50,663 nt of DNA from Thermoflexales bacterium. GTDB lineage: Bacteria > Chloroflexota > Anaerolineae > B4-G1 > DUEL01. The position numbers and the translations under genes are program-made. The first letter of the stretch is position 1; every line of letters begins with the position of its first letter. The notes under the pieces are model-generated. The model saw only the letters and a list, made by a program, of their open reading frames with translations. It was not told the origin of the DNA and did not search any database. Shown in pieces: positions 4,261 through 14,756 of the stretch. The stretch lies in the NCBI GenBank assembly GCA_014360895.1, contig JACIWQ010000009.1, positions 1 to 50,663 on the forward strand. The letters are read 5' to 3'.

Positions 4261-5133
4261 TCAACCCTGGGGTTTCCCCGTGGGGAAGAAACAAACCCCC
4301 ACCGTTCCCGGCCCGGAGTGGACGGCCAGGGCCGGGGAGAGGCTGGTGACGATGACCTCCACGCACTCAAATTGTTCCAGCACCCGCTCCTGGAGTTGTC
4401 GCAGCCGGTCCAGCGCTGCCACGTGGGTGAAGGCCACCTTGATGCGGGCTCTCTTTCCCACCCGCTCCTCCATCAATTCCACCATCCGGGCATACGCTTT
4501 GGAGAGACTGCGGGCGGTCCCCAGGGCGACAATCACGCCGTCCTCCATCCCGATGAGCGGCTTGATGTTCAGAAGGGTGCCCACCAGGTGCTGCGCCCGT
4601 CCGATGCGGCCGCCCATGTGGAGGTAGCGGAGCGTGTCGGCGGTCTGAATCATCATCGCCTGACGGGCCACCTCGCGGGCCCGTTCCACCACGTCCCGCA
4701 GACTCTGCCCTGTGAGGGCCGCGCGGGCCGCCTCTATCGCCGCCCAGCCATGGGCCATGGCGACCTGCAGGGTGTCCACGACCTCCACCTGTAGCCGGGG
4801 CAGCCGCTCTTTCAGAATCTCCACCGCCGCCCGGCAGGACTGAAATGCGCCGCTCCCTTTGGAGGTCATGGTCAGGGCGACAATCTCGCGCGTCCGCTCC
4901 GCCAGCCGCTGAAGCCCGCTCAGGTAATCCCCTGGGCTGGGGTTGGACGTGGTCGGCAGGGTGTCGGCCCGCTCCAGGTACCGGGCCAGTTCGTCGGTGT
5001 CTATGTCCACCCCGTCCCGCAATGTCTCCAGGCCGCGATGGACATAGTAGGGCACCAGTTCTATCCCCAGTTCCTCGGCCAGCGGCCGGGGAATGCTGGA
5101 CGTGGTGTCGGTCAGAATGCCCACAGTGGCCAT
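4261..5133 (-). CDS. DegV-family fatty-acid-binding protein
   Basis: About 290 residues. DegV proteins (FakB-like) bind a long-chain fatty acid and present it to a fatty-acid kinase. Visible hallmarks are the N-terminal TDTTSSIP motif, the PTTSNPS lipid-carboxylate motif, and the HMGGRIGRA region. I chose ATG 5133 because it follows GGAGGAAGG and places the TDTTSS strand at the usual distance. An upstream in-frame ATG at 5178 has its own weaker GGAG and would add 15 residues. No FakA kinase is nearby. The 172 bp beyond its 3' end (4089-4260) show no gene. Confidence 0.88.
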   Translation of the reverse strand: MATVGILTDTTSSIPRPLAEELGIELVPYYVHRGLETLRDGVDIDTDELARYLERADTLPTTSNPSPGDYLSGLQRLAERTREIVALTMTSKGSGAFQSCRAAVEILKERLPRLQVEVVDTLQVAMAHGWAAIEAARAALTGQSLRDVVERAREVARQAMMIQTADTLRYLHMGGRIGRAQHLVGTLLNIKPLIGMEDGVIVALGTARSLSKAYARMVELMEERVGKRARIKVAFTHVAALDRLRQLQERVLEQFECVEVIVTSLSPALAVHSGPGTVGVCFFPTGKPQG

Positions 5134-14015: not shown

Positions 14016-14129
14016 TCAGAATAGGGAACTTGCCGCTGACCAGACTCCGCGACGGACCGGCGGTGGGCGCTTGCGGCCGGGCCCGCGCCCCCGACAGCAC
14101 AGACACTGGCACCCTGGACGGCATTTCAT
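14016..14129 (-). CDS. Possible Cys-rich micro-protein
   Basis: A 37-codon ORF with GGAGGGAG upstream of ATG 14129. It encodes a CxxxGCxCLCC cluster and a basic Pro/Arg tail. The five cysteines suggest metal binding, but the length is near chance in such GC-rich sequence. It fills part of the 243-bp gap between the AhpD-like remnant and TSUP copy 2. Nothing else is seen in that gap. Confidence 0.25.
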   Translation of the reverse strand: MKCRPGCQCLCCRGRGPGRKRPPPVRRGVWSAASSLF

Positions 14130-14186
14130 CGGACTCCCTCCGGCGGACGGGCGACGCCGTCTGCCTCTGCTATCCCCGGACCGACC

Positions 14187-14393
14187 TCACTCGCCCGGGG
14201 ACTTCAGTTCCTGGATCATCGTCCGCACCTTCCCGGCGGCGATGACCTCGGCAACGGCCATCGCCTCGCGGATTTCGTCCTCCGTCGCGCCGTACCGGCG
14301 CGCTTTGCCCACATGGGCCTCCGTTCAGGGCTGACACCCCGCTGCCAGCGAGGCGGCGATAAGGTGACAGTCACCTTGAAGGTGACTGTCACC
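14187..14393 (-). pseudogene. 5'-truncated AhpD-like (CMD) selenoprotein gene with CxxU
   Basis: The frame reads LIAASLAAGCQP, UGA (14325-14327), TEAHVGKARRYGATEDEIREA, then the helix to UGA 14187. This is the carboxymuconolactone decarboxylase/AhpD redox core, in which the motif is CxxC; here the second Cys is UGA, as in known CxxU selenoprotein members. No start codon exists: the first ~10-12 residues are replaced by the inverted repeat at 14362-14394. A 6-bp stem with a GGTAC loop lies at 14286-14302, about 22 nt after UGA. It is probably a recently damaged selenoprotein gene, a redox partner for the thioredoxin-fold protein upstream. Alternatively a Cys-to-stop mutation in decay. Confidence 0.6.
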
Positions 14394-14394
14394 T
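14362..14394. repeat. Perfect 16-bp inverted repeat
   Basis: AGGTGACAGTCACCTT (14362-14377) and its exact reverse complement (14379-14394) flank one base. Each arm is itself nearly palindromic. It sits where the 5' end of the AhpD-like gene should be, 4 bp past the thioredoxin-fold stop codon. A partial copy (GGTGACCGTCACCTT) is at 37158-37172. Confidence 0.8.
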
Positions 14395-14397
14395 CAA

Positions 14398-14670
14398 CTA
14401 TTTAGCGCCGTCCAGCGCCTCCCGCAGCCAGGCGACCACTTCCTCCACCTTCGGGATACGCCCGGCGCAGACCAGTTTCTCGTTGATGACCAGCCCCGGA
14501 GTGAAAAGGATCGGGTATTTGGTGATTTCAGCGTAGTCGGTGATGTGCTGGATGGTGGCCTCCAGGTCGGGCATCTCTTCGGCCAGGACCTCCAGCGCGG
14601 CGACGGCCTGCTGCTCCACCCAGTCGCAGGCCTCGCAGCCCGGTCCCAGAACCTTGATGTTCAGCGGCAT
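14398..14670 (-). CDS. Thioredoxin-fold redox protein (CxxC)
   Basis: 90 residues from ATG 14670, preceded by AAGGAGGG. CEAC (Cys 12 and 15) follows the first beta-strand (IKVLGPG). The later TPGLVIN cis-proline segment completes the fold. The size fits the small TIGR00412-type redox-active disulfide proteins that often accompany arsenic- or sulfur-linked permeases. It is immediately upstream of the damaged AhpD-like gene. Confidence 0.88.
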   Translation of the reverse strand: MPLNIKVLGPGCEACDWVEQQAVAALEVLAEEMPDLEATIQHITDYAEITKYPILFTPGLVINEKLVCAGRIPKVEEVVAWLREALDGAK

Positions 14671-14756
14671 ACGTCCCTCCTTGGGTGCGCAAGAATAGAC
14701 TTTATCGGAAATAGCGCCAGGTGGCGCAGCACGTATCTCTCTCGATAAGGAAAATC

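Follow-up and report, generated by a model that had tools for sequence, protein, structure and literature searches.

Probable deletion relic of a CxxU-type CMD/AhpD selenoprotein gene beside a dispersed palindromic repeat in an Anaerolineae genome

The window, the whole stretch of 50,663 nucleotides analyzed here, most probably carries the relic of a CxxU CMD/AhpD selenoprotein gene truncated by a deletion of approximately 3.3 kb that abuts a pre-existing repeat; we put the probability of this reading at about 0.85. The ancestral gene would have encoded approximately 91 residues, with Sec inserted through UGA in the CxxU motif, and would have been located approximately 3.3 kb downstream of a thioredoxin-fold gene. 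The dispersed palindrome would already have been present just past the thioredoxin gene, and the deletion would have run from the downstream edge of the repeat to codon 34 of the CMD gene. Three transporter-, permease-, and phosphotransferase-like genes would have been lost together with the promoter, start, and first 34 codons of the CMD gene. The proposed order of events rests on G006, a genome of the same genus, and on distant relatives. The features concerned are as follows.

14187..14360, minus strand: 5'-truncated CMD/AhpD selenoprotein gene (codons 35–91 of the G006 gene plus TGA stop; PF02627)
14325..14327, minus strand: in-frame UGA in place of the second Cys of the motif (CxxU), very probably a former Sec codon (translation; 8 of 43 aligned loci with UGA here)
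14286..14302, minus strand: putative SECIS hairpin (7-bp stem, GUA at the apex) whose loop lies 29 nt past the UGA (RNA fold)
14362..14394, no strand assigned: dispersed palindromic repeat AGGTGACAGTCACCTT-G-AAGGTGACTGTCACCT, with the deletion junction at its edge (orthologous copy at G006 L009 4898–4931)
14398..14670, minus strand: intact thioredoxin-fold gene (Thioredoxin_3), the upstream neighbor (PF13192, E 2.6e-20)
14016..14129, minus strand: small Cys-rich ORF MKCRPGCQCLCC..., downstream of the CMD relic (also at G006 L009 8453–8608 and G002 L073 2421–2510)

Truncated gene and deletion relative to G006

Translation of the minus strand from 14360 to 14187 yielded LIAASLAAGCQP-UGA-TEAHVGKARRYGATEDEIREAMAVAEVIAAGKVRTMIQELKSPGE-stop, which corresponds to the last 57 residues of a CMD/AhpD protein, with CxxU in place of CxxC. 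A search of the whole genome with PF02627 (CMD) recovered this segment with an E-value of 8.9e-9 and one TGA inside, and the relic was the only match over the cut-off in the window genome. With the TGA read as Cys, the relic scored 44.7 bits over model positions 30–72 of 84, and the intact G006 protein scored 76.7 bits, both above the curated cut-off of 23 bits. A complete domain and a start codon were found in G006 and not in the window copy, in which model positions 1–29 of 84 are missing and the helix ahead of CxxU is interrupted. Comparison with the intact G006 gene revealed that 34 residues are absent from the N-terminus of the relic, and no in-frame ATG, GTG, or TTG was found in the relic frame between the repeat and the CxxU motif. 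The first-pass annotation had described a CMD/AhpD frame with UGA at the second Cys, which was confirmed by the translation and the PF02627 match. It was also correct that the start codon is gone, but its figure of a dozen lost residues was too low. Judged from its sequence, the feature is a truncated member of the known CxxU CMD selenoprotein kind; having lost its start and more than one third of a small helical domain, it most likely gives no protein product.

G006, a MAG with 83% completeness, is the sole same-genus relative with an intact orthologue. It carries a complete 91-codon CMD gene (L008 1399–1674) with TGA at the same codon, and the relic is approximately 88% identical to residues 35–91 of its product. 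CMD matches were obtained in two of the seven same-genus genomes, namely the window's own and G006, and none in the remaining five, including G002, which has the same neighbors. The N-terminal CMD region is common to G006, G502, G450, and G458, and because the last three share it, the full length is ancestral.

On one G006 contig, the intact CMD gene lies 3.3 kb from the thioredoxin gene and on the same strand. Window positions 14362–14683 (thioredoxin gene and repeat) align to G006 L009 4609–4931, and positions 14059–14360 (CMD gene from codon 35 onward and the small ORF) align to L009 8220–8523. Both blocks have the same order and strand in G006, where they are separated by 3,288 bp that are absent in the window. 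The absent stretch carries ACR3/SBF-like transporter, TauE-like permease, and CDP-alcohol phosphotransferase-like genes as well as CMD codons 1–34, and only pieces of approximately 50 bp of it were found elsewhere in the window genome (a 96.4%-complete, 262-contig assembly). The repeat of G006 already lies directly past the thioredoxin stop codon, with the CMD gene intact further on, and G006 thus has both the intact gene and the inverted repeat that the first-pass annotation sought in relatives. Because the repeat is already in place there, a 3,288-bp deletion ending at the repeat is preferred to an insertion; repeat insertion as the primary event, which that annotation had suggested, was not supported and was set aside as the first choice.

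The flanks of the junction share ATC. The G006 sequences are CACCT-ATC-CGATG and GGC-ATC-GCC, and the window reads CACCTT-ATC-GCC, where one extra T counts against the preferred reading. The ATC at both flanks is compatible with a microhomology deletion at the palindrome edge. The deletion may have been triggered by the palindrome, either through the 3-nt ATC microhomology or through recombination between repeat copies.

The palindrome consists of two 16-nt arms (14362–14377 and 14379–14394) that are 100% complementary and separated by 1 nt. The 16-bp inverted repeat of the first-pass annotation therefore stands, with a gap of 3 bp rather than 4 bp to the thioredoxin-fold gene, whose stop codon is at 14398–14400. 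The half-site GGTGACAGTCACC has 63 exact copies (32 forward and 31 reverse) in the 3.57-Mb assembly, and a reversed-control half-site has 0 forward and 1 reverse in the same genome. A spacing of 18 bp separates the first pair of half-sites in the window and at 19 sampled sites, which were picked among those with two neighboring half-sites; extra copies are present at two sites. No coding-like ORF extended across the repeat at 14 of the 19 sampled sites, and five were ambiguous, under a simple GC3 model. An exact scan of viral contigs detected no full repeat, and literature searches for the half-site letters and for Anaerolineae palindromic repeats found no paper. The 63 half-sites and the intergenic sampled sites mark the palindrome as an ordinary dispersed, mostly intergenic element that is not specific to the CMD gene. 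It is rather doubtful that this palindrome is a deletion hotspot in the genus, repeatedly beheading genes downstream of its copies, with the selenoprotein loss here as one product.

An unlikely sequence of events, though the one nearest to the idea of the first-pass annotation, is that a copy of the repeat first inserted at CMD codon 34/35 and that the 3.3 kb were then lost by recombination with the copy past the thioredoxin gene, with the same end result. The junction lies exactly at the repeat edge, and the T before ATC would fit a GGT (Gly) codon interrupted by the insertion. However, the repeat was inside the CMD gene in no relative seen, the sampled copies are mostly intergenic (14 of 19 without a coding-like ORF across them), and a single deletion with ATC microhomology requires fewer steps. 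It is improbable that the short repeat joined two unlinked stretches during assembly. Although the assembly has 262 contigs and dozens of repeat copies and the junction falls exactly at one of them, both sides occur in matching order and orientation on a single G006 contig, and neither the missing 3.3 kb nor the 5' end of the CMD gene was found anywhere else in the 96.4%-complete assembly.

Remaining codons and candidate SECIS hairpin

Between the relic and G006, 17 codons differ, 11 of them synonymously, with dN of 0.049 and dS of 0.416. Six residues are changed, compared with a mean of 13.3 expected on random placement of the 20 differences (P 0.0001). A stop or UGA also arose in 41% of the random trials, and none was observed; the 57 relic codons contain no other disabling change. 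These figures show that purifying selection acted over most of the divergence, so the gene was working until not long ago and its inactivation looks recent.

Continued translation of the truncated gene into a short CxxU selenopeptide, from a non-standard start or by re-initiation past the thioredoxin stop, is highly improbable. The dN/dS of approximately 0.12, with few amino-acid changes in the remaining codons, would suit a functional product, as would the intact UGA, hairpin, and stop and the position of the relic close behind an intact same-strand gene. Nevertheless, a recent truncation also predicts low dN/dS, the frame from repeat to motif offers no ATG, GTG, or TTG, and the helix before CxxU is cut, with Pfam positions 1–29 of 84 missing.

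A hairpin with a GGUAC loop had been proposed approximately 22 nt downstream of the UGA, and the RNA fold agreed with this: the hairpin of the window starts 22 nt past the UGA and has a GUA/GGUAC apex. The G006 hairpin has a 5-bp stem, the same GUA loop, and the same 29-nt spacing. The geometry of both fits the bSECIS model of hairpin spacing, stem, and apical-G rule, as set out in the available portion of PMC13188914. Their stability was within the range of shuffled sequences, with 10 of 200 shuffles (window) and 29 of 200 (G006) as stable or more, and Rfam gave no match for L011 or for L008, the latter being the G006 CMD locus. Geometry alone is supportive and weakly suggests a SECIS element; the predicted stability is not clearly beyond that of the shuffles.

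UGA codon and UGA-type relatives

The window genome encodes a tRNA-Sec (70.7 bits; tRNA-SeC with anticodon TCA in ARAGORN), and SelA and SelB exceeded their curated cut-offs. In the 13 family genomes searched, SelB was over the cut-off in 11 and SelA in 12. Cys homologues exist, and their conserved Cys falls in the column of the in-frame UGA: of the 43 loci aligned, 34 have Cys there, 8 have UGA, and 1, a poor row, has a different residue. This alignment covers part of the 101 genomes with a CMD match and takes in all eight matches flagged with one TGA. Because the genome has tRNA-Sec, SelA, and SelB and the intact G006 gene has UGA at this position, the UGA of the relic very probably once encoded selenocysteine. 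The same observations bear out the disabled CxxU CMD selenoprotein suggested in the first-pass annotation, which had counted TGC or TGT in relatives as evidence against it; the opposite was found, as the intact same-genus gene carries TGA.

The class-level search revealed CMD matches in 101 of 396 genomes at E 1e-5, and those flagged with one TGA were in G000, G006, G502, G450, G458, G663, G649, and G453. Beyond the window genome and G006, six relatives among the 396 genomes thus also have UGA at the motif. No further UGA forms were detected among 48 order genomes (9 with a match) or, at a stricter threshold, among 400 phylum genomes (5 with a match). The UGA rows did not form one clade in a 43-row, 70-column tree, which required 4 changes, at least 2 of them forced by well-supported branches. 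This tree has few columns and long branches and may be compatible with either one or several Cys-to-Sec origins. In the UGA-type CMD gene of G458 (L080 1501–1748), the frame seems to shift after residue 63, giving two overlapping matches in different frames; this gene may be another copy in decay, or the shift may come from an error in sequencing.

A plain pseudogene of a Cys-type CMD gene, with the TGA as a nonsense mutation, would suit the truncation and the Cys in most CMD homologues (34 of 43 loci), but it is extremely unlikely and was rejected on the intact UGA gene of G006, with TGA also at this codon in six other class members, Sec machinery present, and 57 codons free of other disabling changes.

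CMD-domain CxxU selenoproteins are known from the Sargasso Sea (PMC1088965) and listed in a 2026 review (PMC13188914), and a marine survey reported an AhpD-like pfam02627 CxxU family with 70 selenoproteins (PMC2398784), according to the available portions of these sources. The relic shares with the family, as described in the first two, the PF02627 domain and UGA at the second CxxC position. It differs in being without the first 34 residues and the start, and the genome with the intact orthologue is a MAG from the Anaerolineae. In NCBIfam, the intact G006 protein passed TIGR00778, the AhpD core domain, alone (59.2 vs. cut-off 27.8). Among its best matches were also the NF041047 GSU3128 family (seleno)protein (47.2 bits, below the cut-off of 110) and the NF041537 ArsM_AhpD_UU AhpD domain (77.1 bits, below the cut-off of 510).

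Neighboring genes and significance

The gene cluster of the window contains OsmC, Thioredoxin_3, DGC-domain, TauE, rhodanese, and ArsR-type genes. Orthologues of the thioredoxin-fold gene were found in four of the six other same-genus genomes. In G005, this gene is followed by an ACR3 arsenite transporter gene, and the same repeat is located after the ACR3 gene and not after the thioredoxin gene (L074 4892–4922). An ArsR-type regulator is present near the UGA-type CMD genes of G450 and G458. A role in thiol, sulfur, or arsenic stress would be plausible. Fusion of expression between the thioredoxin gene and the CMD relic, which the first-pass annotation had raised, is contradicted by the reading frames and was rejected: the thioredoxin gene keeps its stop codon, the upstream frame meets TGA, and the CMD frame has no ATG, GTG, or TTG.

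The small Cys-rich ORF has the pattern M[KR]CxPGCxCLCCxGRGPGRKxPPP and adjoins the relic, the intact CMD gene, and the thioredoxin/TauE genes of G002; no NCBIfam match was found for it. At approximately 5033–5100 of G006 L009, flanked by the repeat and by a second, ACR3-like transporter gene, a short N-terminal stretch resembles the start of the G005 ACR3 gene and is perhaps another relic. In G004, an ORF on the plus strand (L071 785–1096) has two consecutive in-frame TGA codons (LVCLD-UU-IFFEG). It resembles the NF041239 CC/Se motif (seleno)protein family (27.8 bits, under the cut-off of 40) and possibly encodes a double-Sec protein.

As a rule, the loss of a selenoprotein is deduced from its absence. 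In the present case, the relic with its UGA, the junction left by the deletion, and the intact gene of the sister can all be read, and the genome with the relic keeps the Sec machinery. The trend toward selenoprotein loss in sister genomes is well established, according to the available portion of PMC1794560. The present case is alike in that one lineage loses the gene and its sister keeps it; it differs from the cases in that portion in that the relic and the boundary of the deletion can still be seen and the genome retains its Sec machinery. It provides a concrete example of loss that most probably occurred by deletion, not by Sec-to-Cys exchange. The result is modest but clean, with UGA-type CMD genes from several Anaerolineae genomes as a further gain.
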